Below, one piece after another: positions 54,501 to 64,000 of a DNA stretch of 64,000 nt (position 1 is its first letter; every line of letters begins with the position of its first letter). The stretch spans positions 434,001 to 498,000 of the forward strand of contig OZ017758.1 of the NCBI GenBank assembly GCA_963969365.1, written 5' to 3'. The position numbers and the translations under genes are program-made. The notes under the pieces were generated by a model, which was not told the DNA's origin, ran no database searches, and saw only the letters and a program-made list of their open reading frames with translations. Source of the stretch: Asterochloris sp. CNOR1 (Eukaryota; Chlorophyta; Trebouxiophyceae; Trebouxiales; Trebouxiaceae).

Positions 54501-57500
54501 CTTCAGCAGCCATGCCGCTGTTGTAGGCGGGGGTCAGGTGGCGCTTGGCCAGCACAAAGACATCAGGGAACTCCTCCACCAGCAGGCTAGCCATCGCCTC
54601 CAGGTGGTGCCTGCTGGGGCCTGCAGAGGCAGTGGTCTGTAAGACTGCATGCAGTAGTGCTGCTTCCATGCAGATGCACCTAAAGCCCTGCAAAGGAAGG
54701 GCATCAGGATACCGCTGTGGGTCGGCACAAACTGCTGTCGTCAGAATGCATGCTGTGGGGTTGCTGACGGAGGGCTTACATAAGACTGCTTGAAGTGGGC
54801 TGCAGCCAGCCAATTTCCTCCTCATGATGCTTGTTGTGGGCTGCTTTTGTACCAGAGTACATGCCAGGGCCTGCAGAGATTTCTATTGCTGCAACATTCG
54901 CTGAAGGGTTGCTGCCAAGCGCAATGGTTCACATCATGGCAAATGTCCCTCAGCGATCTGGAGCTGCAAGAGAAGGGCAGGCAAGCCATGCCCTGCAGAC
55001 CTTTACCATCCACAGTCTGGCCCCAGAAATTGTCCAGCAGCTGCCTTCCATGACGCCTGCGCTGGCCTAAGGCCATGTCTGCTACAAGCCATGCAGCTCA
55101 CCTGTCAGCAGCACAGGCTTCAGGTCAGCACGCTCCACAGTGTTGCTGGGGATGAGGTCTGCATAGTCCAGCACATATGCTGGCAGCCCGCGCAGCCTGT
55201 TCCTGATTAAGGGGCTCAGTACTGAGACTGCCTCCTTGATAGCTACCAGTACGGCCGCTGAGGAGCTTTGCTGAATGATGCTGTTGAACAGGCCTGGCGT
55301 TGCAGCTGCTGCCATCTGCTGCTGGGCCCACTGCAGCCGCTTCTGCACTGTTGACTCAGCCTCGCGCAGCCTGCAGGCAACAGCCATGCCTATTGTGCTG
55401 GTTCCCCACCATGCTAGTGGCTGCAGCAATGCAGGCGCAGCAAGAGCACTTGGCGATGTGAGGCTAGCCTGGAATCCACAAGTCCAGCTGACTGTGCCCG
55501 TGATGCTGAGGAGGGTCATGCGTCACCCGCAAGCAGCAGCAGCTGCTCACTTGATGCGCTGCACCCCTCTATATCATGTCATGCACACCCTGTGTTCAAG
55601 CCTTTAGAACAATGCTTTGCTGCCGCCGCCTGTTTCAGTGCACCAACAGCACACCTGCTTCAGTTCGGCGCACTGAAAGCAGGAAGCCTCCCACAAAGAT
55701 GCATGGGTAGTGAGGTCCCTCACCTGCTGCGCTGCACCTTCTCCAGCTCATCCAGGGAGGAGGGTGCCACAAAGACATACAGGCCATCTACCCTCTTGTT
55801 GCTTTTCAGCGAGCGAGCCCCCTGCAGGTCCAGGCCCATCACGCACAGCCTGCCTGCAGAGTAGGCGCTGGCCACTCAGTTCTTGCAGCAGACATCTGGT
55901 CATTTGAAAAGACTGACTGGGCCAAAGATGACTTGAGATGAACCGTTTCACCAGTGCAACACAGCACATCTGCTAGAGCACTGCGCCTGCCTGAGCCTGT
56001 CAAGTGCAGCTTTCTGGACGGCACCCCTCAACAGACGGCAGGGCAGCACTGGCCCAGACAAGTGCACAGCCATACCTGTTGAGGCCACCCCTCGCACTGT
56101 CACCAGGCTGCTTCCATACAAGTGAGCCTCAGCCCCATGCTGCACCTGGCAGGCCTCCAGAAAGTTGCCTGCATCGATTTCTGCTTGCATGCTGGCGGGA
56201 TCTGTGAAGGTATATGTCCTCCCCTGAAGCTCGTGCTCCTGCAGGAGAGCGGCTGGAGGTGATGCCCCATGGCATGAGGACAGTCGACCTTGCTGCCAGT
56301 AAGGGGGTAGCAGTGTGAAGGCAGCTGCCGACACCACAGGCTTTTGGCCAGCAGCATGGCAGGAGTTAGCAGGCCTGGACAGGGTGTGCAGGGCAGGGCA
56401 GGGTAGCCTTGCCTTGGGCCTACGCGTGGTGTGGCTGACGGTGCGACCAAATGCCTCTGGGTGGCGCTGCACCAGCAGCTCTGCCAGTGCTCCCTTGCCA
56501 ACTGCTGGGGGCCCGCAGAGCACCACCAGGCGGGGCGGCTGCCTGTCAGGGGCTGACCTGCAGGCACAGTATCAGCCATACAGGCCTTACTGGCAGCGGG
56601 GCTGCTGTGCTGGCAGACACCCTGGTTGCAGGAAGTGCCCCTTGTCCTGCTGGAAGCGAGCTATCCCCACATTTGCTGCACAAGCAGCAGGTCAAGCAAG
56701 AGCGCTGCAGCAGCACCTCCCCCCCCCCCCCCCCGTTCCATCTAAGTCGCCCTGAGGCTGCAGCAGCCAAGGCGATCAGGTATTAAGCAGCGCTGCACCA
56801 TGAGGCCCACCTCTGCAGCAGGCTCACGGCCGTGAGGCTGTGCCTGTCCTCGCGGCGCGGCGCCTCGCGGCAGGCGTCCTCAATCCGGTCATACATGACG
56901 CCTGAGCCCCTGGCTGCCACACCGCTCAGAGGGTCCAGTAAGTTCTCCGGCAGCCAGCCTGTGAGCCACTGAAAGGCGGGCACCTGTGCAGGGTTGCTGC
57001 CATCCAGCAGCTGCAGGCAGGCAGGCAGAGGATGTCATGAGATGAGAGGTTTTAGAGTGACTTGATGTCAAAGAAAGGGAGTGAGCTGGGCATGACCACA
57101 TGTGTTGCACTGTCTGTGGAATTGCTGTTTTGCCTCTGACAAAACCAGCAGGCAGTCCGCCAGGCAAAGCACGCTGCCTGGCAAAACCAGCCAGAGCTAG
57201 TTGTGGCTCGTCCCAAGCCAGGCGCCCACGTGCAGCAGAGGCAGCCATCACCAGAGCATGGAACGTATGCAGCCAGGCTTCATGACTTCTTGCCTGGTAG
57301 GCTGCCATCAGCTTGAGGACGGCCTTGCTGAGCAGCAGGGGCCATAGCTGCAGGGGAATGATGCCCACGGGCAGCGGGCGCCCGAACAGGTCCACTGGGA
57401 TGCGGTCGTCCACAGTCACGCGGCGCCACTTGTCCAGCACAAAACAGCGCACATGATACTTGCCGCTGGGGGAGCGAGCAGGCAGGCCATCCTTGTCCTT

Positions 57501-58774
57501 GGGGTGTATCTGCTCCCACAAGAAACTGCCCTTCGGGATGTGGTGCTGCAGGCCAGCAGGGGCTTGCACTCAAGAGTTGACCTCGCCTGATGTGGGTGGC
57601 AGCTGCAGCTCTCACAAGAAGCTGCCTGATGCACTCAAGACTCACGCGCATGGATCTGGTCCCACAGACAGCCTCCCTTGGCAGTAAGGTGCAGCAGGCA
57701 GGCACACGCGCAGATTTCACAGCCTTTGCTCTTTGGCATCACCTCGGCTGTGGCCCAGCAGAGCCACTTCAGCTCCTGCTGCTGATGCAGCCTGCGCAGG
57801 ATGCAGACATCTGCAGCACCCCTGCAGGGCCAGCTGCTGGGCATTTTGCAGCGCATTCTGCTCTCCCACCTAGAGCTGCATGCGATTGACTTTGTCAAGC
57901 AGCCCAGGGGGATGTGCAAGGCATGTGCGCATCCAGCACACTGATGCATTTCCCCATAGATGAGAAGGTGAGGATCAACCTGCAACAGGAGCTTGACAGC
58001 AATGTCGCCTCATGAAGCTGTCAAGGCTACTGTAACCCAAAGATCATTGTGCGCTGATCAGTTGGCTAAGCTTAAATAGGCGTGTCCCGAGCTCAATATG
58101 TCAGATCCACGGTACCTGCACGGTCCTGATCGCCGTAAAAGTGGCGCACAGCCACTCAAAGGCGCCATGCCCCGCAAAGAGCTCCCCTCGTAGAGCCCTT
58201 GCGCCCTCTGCTCCTGCCGCTGCGGCAGCAGGACTGCTGCCAGGGGCCGTCCCACTGGCATCCATGCTGACCATGGGCACATCAGGCACATTGGAGGCCA
58301 GCTCGCCTGCAGAGAGGCAGGTCAGCCATGCCGGCAGCGGCCTTGATACTAACTGCAGCCTGATGACCAAGGGCAATGGCAGGCTGCAGAGGGGCCCAGA
58401 GGCAATGTCAGCGTGCAGCGGGCAGTGGTGCTCTGCCATGATCAGCTGAGGTGATTTTGCATGTTGCTTGTGGCTGTTGCAGGGTGCAACAACCCTGCTG
58501 CTCCCTGCTCCTGTCACCTGATCGCTTCCAAGCATCCACAAAGCCCTTTGCTGCTCCAGGCAGGCACATGCCAAAGGCGTCCTGATGTGCACCTGCACAT
58601 GAGTGTATTGGTTGCTGGATGACATGTGTGCTGGCCACCGAAAGAAGTGCATTGCACACCTGCATCTTTGTCGACTGGCAGTGTCCCATCAGCCCATGGT
58701 GGAAAGAGTGCATCTAATGCTGATGGGGAGGTCTCTTCGATTGAGGGAGGTGATGCAGCTGGCCTGGGCGGCAT
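44160..58774 (-). CDS. Giant multidomain protein: calpain-like, four guanylate-kinase-like, one adenylate-kinase-like and calpain-III/androglobin-like domains
   Basis: About 35 exons and 2,000 residues. Main exons (minus): 58774-58660, 58306-58116, 57979-57743, 57545-57294, 57010-56811, 56557-56413, 56238-56076, 55853-55724, 55370-55102, 54620-54451, 54348-54133, 53957-53835, 53724-53672, 53573-53376, 53093-52934, 52652-52443, 52258-52201, 52009-51735, 51497-51372, 51200-51009, 50746-50579, about 50185-49916, 49629-49485, 49245-49107, 48869-48704, 48529-48407, 48010-47847, 47626-47404, 47082-46994, 46759-46648, 46425-46236, 45994-45898, 45461-45234, 44768-44415, 44333-44160. Nearly all junctions agree in phase; those entering 50185 and 45461 do not, so small exons are missing there. 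No signal peptide is seen. Serial nucleotide-kinase folds suggest a ciliary central-apparatus protein of the FAP42 type (inference). It could instead be two genes. Confidence 0.72.
48704..50190 (-). other. Adenylate-kinase-like module, intact P-loop
   Basis: Exons 22-25. LVVLGPALSGKTAQCARLSAHF gives GxxxxGKT, followed by HVSAGELLHAEV, the DGFPHTQAQ segment of the NMP site, DRVLLLSAPQAVLLDRAKWRR-type residues with RLDPQTRAVYH (LID), and RHDDSEANVRNRLQQW. This is the adenylate-kinase order with P-loop and LID arginines kept. Entry into exon 22 is unresolved because candidate acceptors disagree with the incoming phase. Confidence 0.8.
49049..49080. repeat. Short tandem repeat, 12-bp unit, in an intron
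   Basis: Nearly three copies of ACCATGTGCAGC in the intron between exons 24 and 25 of the large gene. Confidence 0.75.
50579..52009 (-). other. Guanylate-kinase-like module 4, degenerate P-loop
   Basis: Exons 18-21. LVLVGPYGPACSKAALLERLLK has one extra residue and no GK pair. CPQHITTQA stands where SHTTR is expected. MRVSGEFLLHEEVLGNIYGITRAAV is a clear guanylate-kinase lid and LYG segment, and VPVLDVDFVSQAQQL is the following beta strand. Confidence 0.7.
52201..53573 (-). other. Guanylate-kinase-like module 3, P-loop lost but GMP-site region kept
   Basis: Exons 14-17. An Ala/Pro-rich linker (about 53570-53480) leads to LLVMCGPWDPYKAALVGRL, where the P-loop has lost its second glycine. The GMP-binding side is well kept: RHTTKKPEKGEEEGVHYFFV, MVEEGKFIET, MFGTATATL, then GKMAILDVDAKRA and MLLVAPLSPEALGQL. 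Confidence 0.75.
53672..54620 (-). other. Guanylate-kinase-like module 2, degenerate
   Basis: Exons 10-13. It begins after GELTG-type residues with GPSRHHLEAMASLLVEEFP, where the P-loop lysine is lost. VFVLAKRHLTP occupies the place of SHTTR. A helical segment with MMSRKQLLYQHVDIF and LTVFVAPQDIA follows in the order of the guanylate-kinase core. This assignment rests on position and pattern and is weaker than modules 1 and 3. Confidence 0.55.
55102..56557 (-). other. Guanylate-kinase-like module 1, intact P-loop
   Basis: Exons 6-9. LVVLCGPPAVGKGALAELL gives a complete GxxxxGK P-loop, and VSHTTRRPK is the guanylate-kinase GMP-binding motif. TYTFTDPASMQAEIDAGNFL and LYGSSLVTVRGV follow in family order, then VMGLDLQGARSL and YVFVAPSSLDELEKV. 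Intron 6, inside the SHTTR motif, needs a GC donor (CCCAAG|GCAAGG). Of the four modules this one looks most able to bind nucleotide. Confidence 0.8.
56719..56734. repeat. Homopolymer run of 16 C in an intron
   Basis: Sixteen consecutive C (plus strand) in intron 5 of the large gene. The length may be a sequencing approximation; it does not touch coding sequence in this model. Confidence 0.9.
56811..58306 (-). other. Calpain-like region of the giant protein
   Basis: Exons 2-5. Key blocks: GAFEWLCATFTAIRTVQ; PHLLIYGEMHQ; ELKWLCWATAE; then GSFLWEQIHPKDKDG, YHVRCFVLDKWRRVTVDDRI with PVDLFGRPLP, LLLSKAVLKLMAAY, and FQWLTGWLPENLLD. The W-x-x-V-x-V-D-D-R-x-P segment is the calpain/androglobin protease-core signature. 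I do not find the usual QGxxGDCWFL cysteine loop or a clear catalytic His/Asn pair, so the region is probably not an active protease (inference). Confidence 0.65.
57503..57687 (-). repeat. Threefold duplication around calpain-region exon 4
   Basis: On the minus strand three related blocks occur at about 57687-57641, 57640-57591 and 57545-57503. They read AKGGCLWDQIHAR, a stop-containing middle copy, and PKGSFLWEQIHPK. Only the last continues into the conserved calpain block and is used in the model. The first remains open, so an alternative exon is possible. Confidence 0.65.
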
Positions 58775-59014
58775 ATTGCCCTGTTCTTATCGGCGCATGC
58801 ACTTCCCGCCCCTAGACCTATTGTAAGCCATGTGACGCCCTGCAACATGGCTTGAAACTTTAAGGCCTGCTCCGCAACAGAGCCTGTTCATCGTGCTCAT
58901 GCCCACCGGAATACTTCTTGATGAAAGTTTGTGGTTTCAAATGAAAAGTCAGAGAGCTTAGGACTGTGTGCCTACTTAGAGCTTTTCAATCTCACCATAG
59001 GTAAGCAGGCTAGA
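58775..59014. promoter_or_regulatory. Short divergent 5' region between the giant gene and the HUH-like ORF
   Basis: Only 240 bp separate the two proposed starts. A bidirectional promoter is possible from the arrangement; no motif is claimed. An in-frame ATG at 58931 would extend the plus-strand ORF by 28 residues. Confidence 0.35.
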
Positions 59015-60079
59015 ATGAAGTCTAAGCCAGGCAGTGGCAAGAGGCAAGAGCGCAACTTTGAGGTTGTTGTCAACCACATCACCACCAATGAAGACCAGCT
59101 GCCTCAGGTCTCGCGGCAGAGCATGGCGGCTCTGAAGGATGTCTTTGGACACAACATCAAGAAGCACTCAGGCACTCTTCACCACAAGTCCGGCAACCAC
59201 CATGTACATTTCCTTGTGATGTCTGAGGCTCCTAAGACCAAGAGCGCTGTCAAAGCCAGTATTGCTGCCTCCATGGCACTCATCTTTGGCACACAGACTG
59301 ACTCTGTGGAAGTGAAGTTGTTCAATGAGTTGAAAGCAGATGCTGGACCAGCTCACGGCCTGAAGGGGCTTGGCAACTACAGGTCGCTGTACGTGAACAA
59401 CAACGACCATGAGAATCACCGCCCAAAGCATCCTGAGCACAGGACAGTGGAGTTCATGTGTGGTGGAGATTGGGAAATTTCACATGGAGGTGCCAGGAAT
59501 AGTGCTGGACGACAAGGGCCAGTGCAAGTGGCAATAGCGGCCATCAGGGCAGGGACTCCAGAGTTGCAGTGCAAAAACTATGAGAATTTCCAGCGTCTGC
59601 TGGAAGCCGCCGCGAAGAGTGTGGGTTGCACCATATGTACCTTGCCAAAGGTACCGGGCTTCTTCAGTACTGTGCCCAAGCGCGTGGAGGGTGACTTCGT
59701 CCCCAACCCTGCCTATGATGAGGAGGAGTTCAAGGCCCTACCCAAACAGGAGCAAACCAGCAAGCGGAAGCGCACCATGAAGTATATGCAGGGGCCAGAC
59801 GGGCTAAGCCTAAGGGAGGAGGTGGTGGTCAAGCACAACTTTCTGGAGGGACACCCTCCTGATTTCTACAGATTCAGGCTCCTTGAGCCAATCAGGAAGT
59901 TGCAGTCTAACAGGATGCTCACAATTCCCAAGTTGAAGCAGCTCTACGAGGAGGCATTCATCGATCTGTTCAAGGACTACCCACCTCCTGGATGGACGTC
60001 TGGTCGTGCGCCAGCAAGGGCATGTGTCAGTTACAATCTGCCAGCAGCAGTTATTGCTGATGTGATGAAGGCCAGATGA
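59015..60079 (+). CDS. Intronless ORF with HUH-endonuclease-like motifs (candidate rolling-circle Rep/transposase)
   Basis: A single 354-residue frame, unlike its intron-rich neighbours. Starting at the ATG at 59015 (MKSKPGSGKR), three motifs fall at the spacing of HUH Rep nucleases: NFEVVVNHIT at 14-23 (motif I position), HHVHFLV at 62-68 (motif II, H-hydrophobic-H at 63-65), and GLGNYRSLYVNN at about 108-119 with Y112 and Y116 as candidate nucleophiles (motif III). Such enzymes nick single-stranded DNA through a tyrosine and drive rolling-circle replication or transposition. No helicase domain follows; the C-terminal half is charged, with a basic KRKRTMKY patch. The motif reading is mine and untested. 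Replitron-type HUH transposons are known from green algae, so such a protein is plausible. Otherwise it is an unknown mobile-element ORF. Confidence 0.45.
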   Translation: MKSKPGSGKRQERNFEVVVNHITTNEDQLPQVSRQSMAALKDVFGHNIKKHSGTLHHKSGNHHVHFLVMSEAPKTKSAVKASIAASMALIFGTQTDSVEVKLFNELKADAGPAHGLKGLGNYRSLYVNNNDHENHRPKHPEHRTVEFMCGGDWEISHGGARNSAGRQGPVQVAIAAIRAGTPELQCKNYENFQRLLEAAAKSVGCTICTLPKVPGFFSTVPKRVEGDFVPNPAYDEEEFKALPKQEQTSKRKRTMKYMQGPDGLSLREEVVVKHNFLEGHPPDFYRFRLLEPIRKLQSNRMLTIPKLKQLYEEAFIDLFKDYPPPGWTSGRAPARACVSYNLPAAVIADVMKAR

Positions 60080-60245
60080 TGCAAGCTTGTTTACAAGATC
60101 ATGAACTTGTCTGAATCACCATGCCACAGCTCAGGTGTGGAAGGTGCGTCCACGTACCACACCATATGACTTTGTAACAGATGCACAGATTGCGCGAGTG
60201 CAGCCCTTTTCAAGGGCCCAGGAGGTCCTCTTGTGCCACCAGGGA

Positions 60246-60453
60246 TTCAAGTGTAGATGCTGCCAGGTCCAAAAAGCCACCACATGTGTTGGTCAGGCCA
60301 GCTCCCTCTGAGTAATACCTTCAAGTGTAGTTCAAGTGTAGTGGAACCTTTGTTGTGCAGCGGCAAGCCGAAAGTGGTTGATTGGCCCAGAGAAAAGGGT
60401 TACGCGGACATGCAGATCTTCAGTTCATGTAGACCAAGAGTGTTTCAAGTGTA
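60246..60453 (+). repeat. Four direct copies of TTCAAGTGTA
   Basis: The 10-mer TTCAAGTGTA occurs at 60246, 60320, 60331 and 60444, the middle two adjacent as an 11-bp tandem. All lie between the stop of the HUH-like ORF and the palindrome at 60463. Such iterons can be protein-binding sites near replication or transposition ends, but their role here is unknown. Confidence 0.8.
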
Positions 60454-60462
60454 ATCTGTTGG

Positions 60463-60488
60463 GGGGGCAAGCCTGCAGGCTTGCCCCC
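60463..60488. repeat. Perfect 26-bp palindrome
   Basis: GGGGGCAAGCCTG followed directly by its reverse complement, with no loop base. It is the strongest hairpin-forming sequence I noticed in the window. It lies 384 bp after the stop of the HUH-like ORF and about 155 bp after the end of the recombinase gene on the other strand. It could be an element-end hairpin or a transcription end signal for the convergent pair. Confidence 0.9.
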
Positions 60489-60642
60489 TTGCATGAGATC
60501 TGATTTTGTGGAGTGAAATCTGACTTTCTGAGTGAAATGTTACATCGCTCAGTAAGATATGACTTTCAGCAGAGAAATGTACCTGTGCAGGTAATTGGCG
60601 GTAGGAATTTCGATTTAGATCAGCAAACAATCAAAGGCTTGC

Positions 60643-63600
60643 TCAGCTGCTCTGCTTACGCTTGCCAAGCAGCTTGGAATCACTGCTGTACCTGCTGCAT
60701 AGCTGCTGCAGTGAGCTGACTGTCCTGGTGGCGGAAATTCGCTCACGTTCCATTTCTAAAGCCCCGACCACAGCAGCCATGGTGCTTCCCAAGGCCACCA
60801 TGCGGTTCCTGACCTCAACAGCGATGCCATTTTTAAATCTTGAGAAGGCCATGCTGCTGGCCCTTGCTTCTTTCTTGCTGCCATGCCACCTGCGGAGGTC
60901 TGAAGGCACCGCTGAGATCTTGGAGAACGCCTCAAATTCTTCTGGGACTGTCTGGAAATCTGAGAGCTTCCACACCTGCAGTTCACAAGGCGACAAGGTC
61001 TGACCAGTTCACAGGCGCTCAAGCTGAAAGGCAATTGACTGCATACCTGTTTCTCGACCAAAAAGGAGTCCCTCTCATCCCCAGGGCTCAGCGCACTGAG
61101 GGCCTGAGGCGGCAGAGTAATGCCATAGCTGGCCTTTGAAGCCAGAGGCACCCACGGCATGGGGTTGGCGGATGCTGGAGGCTGAACACTGGAAAGAGGC
61201 ACCTGGGGCAGCATCACCACAGGGGCAACTGGCATAGGCGTGGCCTCCTTTCCACTCAGCATCTTGAAGAAAGCCTGCGACATGGCAGGGGAAAGGGTCA
61301 GAGCATGGTTGATCTAGATCTGGACACTTCAAGGCCACAGCGCTCACCATTGGGTTGGTGAAAAACTCATTTTTGTCTTTGAGAATCCTCTCAGCGGCAA
61401 TGTGTTCGTCCCATAACTCTTGCCGCAGCTGCTTGCCTACAGCGCTCTGCAGAAGGCGACTGGCTGCTGGCGGGATGCTGCGGAGCCACTGGTCCCCATA
61501 TGACTGAATTCTCAAGCTGGCGTTCTGCACAAACACCTGCCGCAGGTGGTCGATGGCGCGTAAGGGCGCCAGCAAAGGATTTGCAGGGTGGCATCGCACG
61601 CCAGCTTGGCGCAGGAGCACTGTCAAGCCCGGGATGATGCGATCCAGCACATCCTCCTCAGCCTGCAGAACACAATCAGATCAGTCCCTCCATTCCTCAA
61701 TTTTGGTGATTTGCGTGAGAAGCACTGGCACTGCAGTGACCTTACCTTGAAATCAGCCTGACCCAAACGATGATTCTCCTTCCAGTCCCGTTCCCACCCA
61801 GCCAGCCTGTGGGCTGTGTCTGGGTCAAAGATGCAATACAGGTCTGTGGTGTCAGACTCATGCCTGCATGGCACAACACTGGTCAGCTGGAGATAATGTT
61901 GTTCAAATGCACAGCATGGCCTGAGTTGCCTACCTCGCCGCCATCTTGATCTCCGCTTTGTTGATGCCCACATTCTTTGCCGCCTCCACACCATGCTTCT
62001 TGAATTTGTGGCTGACTTCCCCTTTTGTTGAGTACCCATCAAGCCTGCCACAGGGCACACCTGCGATGTAACAAGCCACAGATGTCACCCACAGCCGTGT
62101 CCACAATCTGAATCAGCAACGCACGGGCTCACCAGCAAGGTCAAAAGCCTGCCGAAGGTGAACGTTGAGGGTCTGCCCGCTCATGGGCTGATTCCCCTGC
62201 ATGCTAGGGGCTGCAACAATGTAGTTGGCCAGATCCTCAAGTTTGATGCCCCTGTGGAAGGTAGCGACAGCCAGGTCGGCAAGCGCTGCCTGAGGACAGA
62301 TGCGATGGTCTCGATACCTGCGGCAGAGGAGGCATAAAACTGAGAACACACTGCAGCAAACTGCCCAAGTGCGTCTGACAACATGAATGCGCATACCTGA
62401 CGACACCAGGAATATCCACCTGCCCAGGCTTCACAGTCTTGCCCTGCATGCTACCACAGAGGACTGCCACAGAGGGCGTTGGCCCCACAATATCCTGCGT
62501 CCTCAGTGCCAGGCAGCTCCAGGGAAGCTTGCGCAGGTCATCAGAGCGGCCCAGTGTGGCTGGCATGAACGTCATTGCCATCCTCAGAAGACAGGCCCAC
62601 TGCCACTGCTTCTGCTGGAAAGCTTTTTGCAGGGACTGGCGAAGCTGCCCTGCGCTCAGTGCAGCATCTACCTGCACATTTAAACAGCCACTTGACGCAT
62701 GAACACAAGTAGCGGCTGGGCTTGTGCCAGCCGAGCTGATGGAACGTTTCAAGACAGACAGAAAATCTCATGGAGAAGTGGATGAACAAAGCAGAGCTGG
62801 GAAGCATGTCAGTCATCTGTTCAGCCAACCCTGAGAACACCCAGCGCTGAGACTTCTTGGCCGATGGCAGCTTGGAAGCCATGGTCAGGGCAAAGACGCC
62901 AGCTTCGTTGATCCAGGCTGATGCCAGCCCACCACAGTCCACCGACATCGACCTCAAAACAGGGAAGCCCTCTGAGGTCCATACACACCTGAGCTGCCAC
63001 CTGCGCATTGAGGTTCTCAGCCTGCATCTCCTTGCCACGTGCACGGACCAAGTCTCTAACTGCCTGAATCTCCAGGGGTGCGGGTACATCTGAGGTGATG
63101 CGGCCCTGTGAGTACTGCTCCCTGCGGACTTCCTTGAGGTGGCACAGATAATCACTGCACACACCAGGCCAAAGTTGGGGAGGGCAAGACTTGAGTGCAG
63201 CTCAGACACGGCAGTGGAGTGGCCTCTCATCCCACACTGCTGGATGAGTATCGAGCACCATTCTGCTGCACTGCCTCATCCACAAGCCATATCGAGAACT
63301 CAAGAATCTTGGCCTGGGACATGAGGTCGCCATCAGGGGACGCCTCCTGCTCACAGTATCTCTGCAAGAATGGGTGTGTGTGAGCGACATGTCCTTGTAA
63401 GCATCAAGGGCGCCATGAAGAACGGGATCAAAGGCCTACGGTGTCTACCTTCCAGAGGTTGGCAGCGGATTTTTCAGCCTGGACTGTGTTCTGTGGCTTA
63501 GCCGCACCATGACGTACATTGATGTGCTGGGTGCACCTGAGAATACGAGCTTCCTCCTCAGGAGTGTTAGGCATGGTTGCTGCAAAGCCAACTGCTGCGT

Positions 63601-63859
63601 CTGGGATTGGTGCTCCATTCTGCTGGCCCAAGGTCTCTAAACTGTGCATACCAAGGGCAGAGACCGGCACAGGCTGGAGATCATCCACCACGCCAGACAG
63701 GTGTCTGCAGGCTTGATTAATGGCCGCTCTGAGAGAACGGGGGCTGTCTGGGGAGCAACTGCCATGCAGTTGTGCTATGTAGTCCCCAGCCAGCCCCAGG
63801 TTGATGACATGGTTAATGTAGCTGCTGTACTGAGCAGATGGCACTTGGTAGTGCTGCAT
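60643..63859 (-). CDS. Crypton-like tyrosine recombinase, about 10 exons
   Basis: Exons (minus): 63859-63449, 63361-63238, 63154-63001, 62671-62397, 62317-62133, 62060-61934, 61863-61746, 61662-61348, 61274-61047, 60975-60643; about 756 residues. Only the junction 63238/63154 fails to keep frame. A core-binding domain (IWLVDEAVQQNG, DYLCHLKEVRREQY) precedes a catalytic part in the order of Crypton/Ndc10-like recombinases: GRSDDLRKLPWSCL with the first arginine, GSMQGKTVKPGQV, RDHRICPQAALADLA, then SHKFKKHGVEAAKNVGINKA, AARHESDTTDLY and HRLAGW. The usual HxxR reads HKFK, an Arg-to-Lys change; Y of TTDLY is the likely nucleophile. The C-terminal block WKLSDFQTVPEEFEAF with SDLRRWH resembles the GCR1_C DNA-binding domain of such proteins. 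It faces the HUH-like ORF. Confidence 0.7.
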
Positions 63860-64000
63860 GAAGATGGATCTGGGAATTTGATGATGATGATTTAAGTTTA
63901 AAGTCCGTAGCCTCAATGCACGGGCATAGGACTATGATCATTTCATCCTACCAATGAACTTTGCTGAAGGTGTAGGGGTACAAAAAGAAGCAGTACAGGC
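63860..64000. other. 5' flank of the recombinase gene, window edge
   Basis: The minus-strand frame is open upstream to about 63916 across an ATGATGATG-like run, and an acceptor-like TTCCCAG lies just before ATCCATCTTC, so the first exon could begin here or beyond the edge of the window. Confidence 0.4.

Follow-up and report, generated by a model that had tools for sequence, protein, structure and literature searches.

Eukaryotic transposons that encode HUH proteins and those that encode tyrosine recombinases (YRs) are treated as separate classes, and the multicopy element described here holds both, the HUH protein being putative. Among the HUH transposons, Helitrons have ends of the form TC...CTRR. 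Replitrons, HUH-encoding transposons of green algae and seedless plants, are described as 0.9-4 kb long, with short direct terminal repeats and without inverted repeats (PMC10741241). Among the YR transposons, the composite Crypton has a precedent in MarCry (PMC3212892), and bacteria offer a further system in the AICEs of actinobacteria.

Like a Crypton (PMC3212892), the element has an intron-bearing YR with sub-threshold NDC10-like similarity and a proposed circular stage, and in one copy, C4, the junctions show a 6-bp direct repeat, CCTGCA. It departs from Cryptons in adding an HUH-like gene and cargo, in its size of 5-17 kb, in the HxxK of its YR (HxxR in Cryptons) and in terminal inverted repeats that share GCCATGTGACRCCCTGCAAC. 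With Helitrons it would have in common that it is a eukaryotic HUH-based transposon, the HUH assignment here being putative, but the ORF has no helicase or Helitron Pfam match, no in-frame helicase adjoins it and the element ends differ from TC...CTRR. Like MarCry-1_FO, a Mariner-Crypton fusion, it would join a Crypton YR to a second transposition enzyme and has terminal inverted repeats, whereas the partner there is described as a DDE transposase with TA duplications and here is an HUH-like protein (PMC3212892). It is like Replitrons in being a eukaryotic transposon that encodes an HUH-like protein, but its length of 5.3-17.2 kb to an inverted right repeat differs from their description, which, as far as it goes, mentions no YR (PMC10741241).

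In gene content the element would be comparable to AICEs such as pSAM2, which have an HUH-type rolling-circle initiator and a YR integrase and are excised as circles (PMC3218068). Both have the two genes on one unit, the HUH identity here being putative and the circle being inferred from one permuted copy; AICEs are bacterial, conjugative and tRNA-targeted, and no sequence match between them and the element was found. By analogy, the element would resemble bacterial integrative rolling-circle elements, pSAM2 for example, in function, and with its probable circle footprint it is a natural system in which to ask whether replication and integration are joined as in bacterial integrative plasmids. 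A title-level literature search, without subscription papers or preprints, found no description of a eukaryotic element with an HUH and YR pair.

Genes and sequence features of the window

The window, by which we mean the whole stretch of 64,000 nucleotides that was analysed, holds the following features.

58815..58853, plus strand: left end, (G/A/C)ACCTA... then a stem-loop (AAGCCATGT...ACATGGCTT); present in the window and in 18 of 18 fetched copies
59015..60079, plus strand: putative HUH-like nuclease ORF, 354 aa from the first ATG; open frame from 58931
60246, 60320, 60331 and 60444 (span 60246..60453), plus strand: four direct TTCAAGTGTA repeats, exact matches
60463..60488, no strand: perfect 26-bp palindrome GGGGGCAAGC-CTGCAG-GCTTGCCCCC; proposed recombination site or replication origin
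60643..63859, minus strand: Crypton-like YR gene, 10 exons, 762 aa; exon model with splice sites compared over copies
63859-63449, 63361-63231, 63154-62989, 62671-62397, 62317-62133, minus strand: YR exons 1-5 of the model
62060-61934, 61863-61746, 61662-61348, 61274-61047, 60975-60643, minus strand: YR exons 6-10 of the model
63881..64000, continuing beyond the window, no strand: sequence replacing the expected right module; the window copy diverges from the other copies at 63880

The original prediction had described an intronless ORF, an intron-rich recombinase on the opposite strand, four copies of a repeat and a perfect 26-bp palindrome between the genes, and all of these are in place: the frame 58931-60079 is open without introns, the recombinase is a minus-strand model of 10 exons and 762 aa from 63859 to 60643, TTCAAGTGTA occurs exactly four times in the window and the palindrome occupies 60463-60488. 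The predicted span of 58931..64000 does contain both genes, but the unit begins further left, at 58815, and has its right end outside the window.

The open frame comprises 382 codons, with its first ATG at 59015. Among 10 aligned copies at 63-97% identity, H64-V-H66, Y123, Y127 and N131 (numbered from window position 59012) are invariant; the HUH motif and a candidate catalytic tyrosine, which are the sequence criterion for HUH endonucleases, are thus found in 10 of 10 copies, the activity being predicted. The numbering of H64, H66 and Y127 is, we presume, the same as in IS608 TnpA, which may be coincidence. The ORF is under purifying selection, with dN/dS of 0.21-0.38 in pairs involving four divergent copies and up to 0.62 in closer pairs, and a near full-length stop-free frame is found at 21 of 80 ORF places. 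The MobL relaxase profile matched six of 10 ORF members below its cut-off (best E 0.0028), the window's own copy giving no match, and a genome-wide search with it returned three sub-threshold matches (best E 0.0033), all in this ORF family.

Searches of the ORF against Pfam, PHROGs, NCBIfam and PDB sequences returned nothing that names HUH at a curated cut-off: PHROGs gave no match, NCBIfam one weak and meaningless match, and PDB sequences unrelated weak matches only (best E 0.014). Y1_Tnp, the Pfam profile of IS200/IS605 Y1 transposases, had no genome-wide match at E 10, with controls positive in 6 of 14 genomes. A single-sequence structure model of the ORF was unusable (mean pLDDT 39, pTM 0.27), and its predicted order of strand-helix-strand-strand(HVH)-helix-strand agrees with an HUH domain, at a confidence so low (pLDDT 39) that we give it little weight. 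The HUH label of the original prediction is retained as likely, not proven, the invariant HVH and tyrosine and the weak MobL matches being set against the absence of a curated match. The ORF might instead encode an accessory protein of a Crypton-like transposon and be no HUH nuclease at all, as its want of a curated family match at cut-off, of a usable fold and of any Y1_Tnp match in the genome would allow. We consider this unlikely in view of the invariant HVH and downstream Y, the HUH-like strand and helix order, albeit of low confidence, and the confinement of MobL to three places genome-wide, all in this family.

The recombinase is called a YR because it matches Pfam NDC10_II (E 0.0013, 18.3 bits, below the 26.3-bit cut-off) and because the residues R...K...HxxK...H...Y are conserved. 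Across aligned copies, the R (in GRSDDLR), K, HxxK, H and Y are conserved with few exceptions, and the second R of the Crypton R-H-R-Y is replaced in aligned copies by K (HKFKK). A six-frame genome search with NDC10_II found no match, but as its control was silent too, this negative carries no information. The YR had no match among PDB sequences. The YR, like the ORF, is under purifying selection (dN/dS 0.26-0.66, 17 copies). It could be modelled in 16 of 19 sequences, in eight of which all 18 splice sites are standard, while the frame is open throughout in the window copy and copy L027 only, each with one non-standard splice site, which in the window copy is an AT instead of GT at the donor of intron 2. 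As none has an open frame and standard splice sites together, none of the 16 modelled YR copies is intact; small frame errors in the assembly are conceivable.

Between the genes, the four exact TTCAAGTGTA copies in the window compare with 0.04 expected in shuffles, and four iterons, at up to one mismatch, occupy equivalent positions in 13 of 17 intergenic regions, window included. These 17 are the regions with clear borders, the two of 19 without clear borders having been left out. The palindrome is the sole match in the window at up to three mismatches (0.00 expected); at up to four mismatches it is present in 12 of the 17 intergenic regions and was not found in five, and in relatives with 74-77% protein identity it lies 384-390 bp past the ORF. 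Its layout is 10-6-10 bp, it folds into an 11-bp stem with a 4-nt loop, and the last iteron ends 9 bp ahead of it. A search of the genome for the half-palindrome gave 52 exact matches and 161 in total at up to one mismatch, against none for the reversed control; in the permuted copy C4 it picked out the two halves lying apart. Lone exact half-palindromes were noted at C1:1035540, C7:387307 and C16:1193295. At C14:2286995-2290572, two intact palindromes 1.37 kb apart flank a piece of the ORF in inverted orientation with respect to the neighbouring YR, and an inversion between the palindromes is possible.

One mobile unit in many copies

Copies were surveyed in the genome that holds the window (56.4 Mb, 21 contigs), which its introns and composition mark as eukaryotic, presumably that of a green alga. 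A DNA search gave at least 46 matches to the HUH-like ORF at 80-100% identity (40 of 92 candidates scored), and a protein search gave 121 matches to the ORF and at least 234 to the central YR region. Among the matches listed, clustering yielded 80 ORF places and 81 YR places; within this set a convergent YR lies up to 20 kb downstream at 68 of the 80 ORF places (1.15 by chance) and within 3.3 kb at 56 (about 0.19 by chance), and only two close ORF-YR pairs, C4 among them, are arranged otherwise.

Besides the window copy, 18 further copies with their flanks were compared in detail. The same left end (window 58815) and both genes in the same order were found in 16 of them, and 16 can be aligned over the stretch from 58815, or close to it, to at least 63870, 10 in one uninterrupted alignment. 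The alignment of copy L019 ends at 62676, and copy L013 is the circularly permuted copy C4:2901842-2909514. The core is 90-98% identical between copies, and this ORF-YR core is the only part common to them.

The original prediction had posed a choice between one unit with two strand-transfer enzymes and a nested insertion, to be decided by comparing copies in the same genome. Because genome copies pair both genes and have the same left end, the comparison shows that the HUH-like ORF and the YR form one mobile unit: 68 of 80 ORF places are convergent pairs among the matches listed, and 16 of 18 copies run through both genes, the HUH protein being putative. As to copies with a single gene and a clean boundary between 60080 and 60640, the only clean break there is that of C4, which still holds both genes, in circularly permuted order. 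Two unrelated elements or host genes that lie side by side in the window only are hardly credible; 12 of 80 ORF places and 16 of 81 YR places among the matches listed do have no partner, and these may be remnants or truncated copies, but the pairing of the rest of the ORF places in one orientation contradicts a nested insertion. In order, the unit comprises the left end, the HUH-like ORF, the iterons with the 26-bp palindrome, the YR, the right module, variable cargo and the right repeat.

Searches of viral_contigs and genome_contigs found no relatives outside this genome. Relatives within it, such as C6:2356918-2364761, C7:2676583-2686516 and C14:772303-782352, form sub-families, some with 6-9 kb separating the ORF and the YR, others with 1.1-2.4 kb extra between the left end and the ORF; such sub-families may carry more genes.

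Ends, extent and cargo

The left tip ACCTA is present in 19 of 19 copies, preceded by a first base that is G in 14, A in three and C in two. Outer left flanks are unrelated between copies and show no target consensus, with T at -1 in 10 of 18. In its common form, the left-end stem-loop folds more stably than every one of 200 shuffles (z -3.1). Pattern searches of the genome found 50 left-end places, 30 right-module places and 120 places of a 27-bp right repeat that was first spotted in C4; GCCATGTGACRCCCTGCAAC is common to the left end and the inverted right repeat. Among the matches listed, which cover 100 of the 120 repeat places, the inverted right repeat lies up to 20 kb downstream of 32 of 50 left ends, at 5.3-17.2 kb (median 9.7 kb), while the other three arrangements of left end and repeat account for three, three and nine of 50. 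The 17.2 kb distance, in C9, spans a second left end, and the right repeat there probably belongs to a neighbouring element. The right repeat often occurs in tandem copies 37 bp apart, for example at C1:255707, C4:1156771 and L012:2879-2935.

The right module (GCGCGCTAGGGTT...GACCTAGTACTTAGGTC) was considered as the element end and ruled out because, in 20 of 30 cases among the matches listed, inverted repeats lie 2.5-12.6 kb beyond it; three right modules are followed by another repeat at 5 nt. A separate 2568-bp ATPase transposon in C4 was likewise dropped, since inverted repeats lie beyond the right module. No target-site duplications were evident between the left flank and the sequence past the right module, which is not the true right end.

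Between right module and right repeat, only patches are common to the 16 copies compared (73-92% identity). The cargo of C4 holds an ATPase (ATPase_2, E 1.2e-11), a relative of which is present in opposite orientation in copy L014; Pfam matched one of six cargo ORFs, weakly and irrelevantly. In view of the terminal inverted repeats, a third enzyme might make the outer-end insertions, for example a cargo-encoded or trans-acting DDE transposase, both genes being passengers or resolving intermediates as in MarCry-1_FO. Inverted repeats at both ends and the MarCry precedent (PMC3212892) make this conceivable, but no DDE transposase was recognised in the six cargo ORFs and the ATPase that were scanned, and it is the ORF-YR core that all copies have in common, so we rate a third enzyme as very unlikely.

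A circularly permuted copy and a possible mechanism

C4 (C4:2901842-2909514) has the order palindrome half, YR, right module, ATPase cargo, right repeat, left end, ORF and palindrome half. The copy is opened in the middle of the palindrome; CCTGCA, the palindrome core, stands at each outer junction and is the stretch by which the two pieces overlap. Both outer flanks are non-element DNA, and the inner junction reads right repeat-AATAT-left end; this junction recurs, reversed, in the left flank of copy L022. The halves are 98.3% and 97.7% identical to copy L020, and the YR of C4 is disrupted by a frame break in exon 7 and by a stop in exon 10. The opening at the palindrome, the CCTGCA of the two junctions and the contact between right and left ends together suggest a circle that integrated at the palindrome. 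In the literature (PMC3212892), a YR site consists of two inverted repeats of 11-13 bp flanking 6-8 bp, and Cryptons end in direct repeats of 4 or 6 bp; the 10-6-10 palindrome and the 6-bp repeat agree with this.

C4 is the one permuted copy found, its arrangement being read from the assembly alone. It might not be a circle product but two neighbouring copies each cut back to the palindrome, or a misassembly. Palindromes are prone to breakage, which would favour such an origin, but both breaks lie within the same 6 bp, the outer flanks are non-element DNA and, at the inner junction, the right end meets the left end; we regard this explanation as distinctly improbable.

The pairing of the genes, the common left end, the inverted right repeat, the conserved palindrome and iterons, and the right-to-left junction in C4 support a composite unit. 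We therefore lean, at slightly better than an even chance, towards a single composite DNA transposon with a circular stage that would use an HUH-type single-strand nuclease and a Crypton-like YR. The element would be released or copied out as a circle with its right end joined to its left end. Rolling-circle copying would be initiated by the HUH protein, either where the iterons and the hairpin lie or at the left end with its own hairpin, and the YR would insert the circle into chromosomal DNA; in the case of C4, the palindrome (10-6-10 bp) would have recombined with a target that matches it over the 6 bp CCTGCA. Most copies, by contrast, are linear insertions that extend from the left end to the right terminal repeat, with variable cargo between the right module and this repeat. 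A more specific proposal, in which the HUH protein multiplies the circle and the Crypton-like YR inserts it via the 26-bp palindromic site, would make the element, with its exchangeable cargo between the conserved core and the right end and its two insertion forms (outer-end linear and palindrome-permuted), a new eukaryotic transposon superfamily operating in the manner of a bacterial integrative rolling-circle plasmid; this we put forward tentatively and as clearly short of an even chance.

Iterons beside a hairpin are the usual look of a rolling-circle origin. In the same unit, the palindrome and iterons could accordingly be the HUH rolling-circle origin, with C4 representing HUH-cut DNA joined at the nick site and the YR acting at the outer ends, and the iterons ending 9 bp before the palindrome, with its 11-bp stem and 4-nt loop, would suit this well. 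A YR crossover agrees better with the 10-6-10 layout and with the 6 bp matched at the two C4 junctions, and the arguments for either rest on one copy; we take the HUH origin to be a serious possibility that is nevertheless rather unlikely.

The right side of the window copy and its neighbours

No right module of the window copy was found up to window coordinate 74000. From 63900 to 64991, the sequence matches, at 96.8% identity, a segment of L027 that lies next to a reverse-transcriptase ORF (RVT_1, E 1.2e-14). The replacing repeat runs to 64991 (C13:498991) and is inverted beside L027, where it adjoins the RVT_1 ORF. Parts of it follow the YR start in L022, L025 and L028, with differing lengths before the right module, and it may be a retroelement with a single favoured insertion spot in the element. 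Host-type gene pieces also lie near the element, namely a guanylate kinase at 55948-56526 on the minus strand (E 2.9e-13) and a calpain-family protease at 56889-57569, also on the minus strand (E 3.2e-8).
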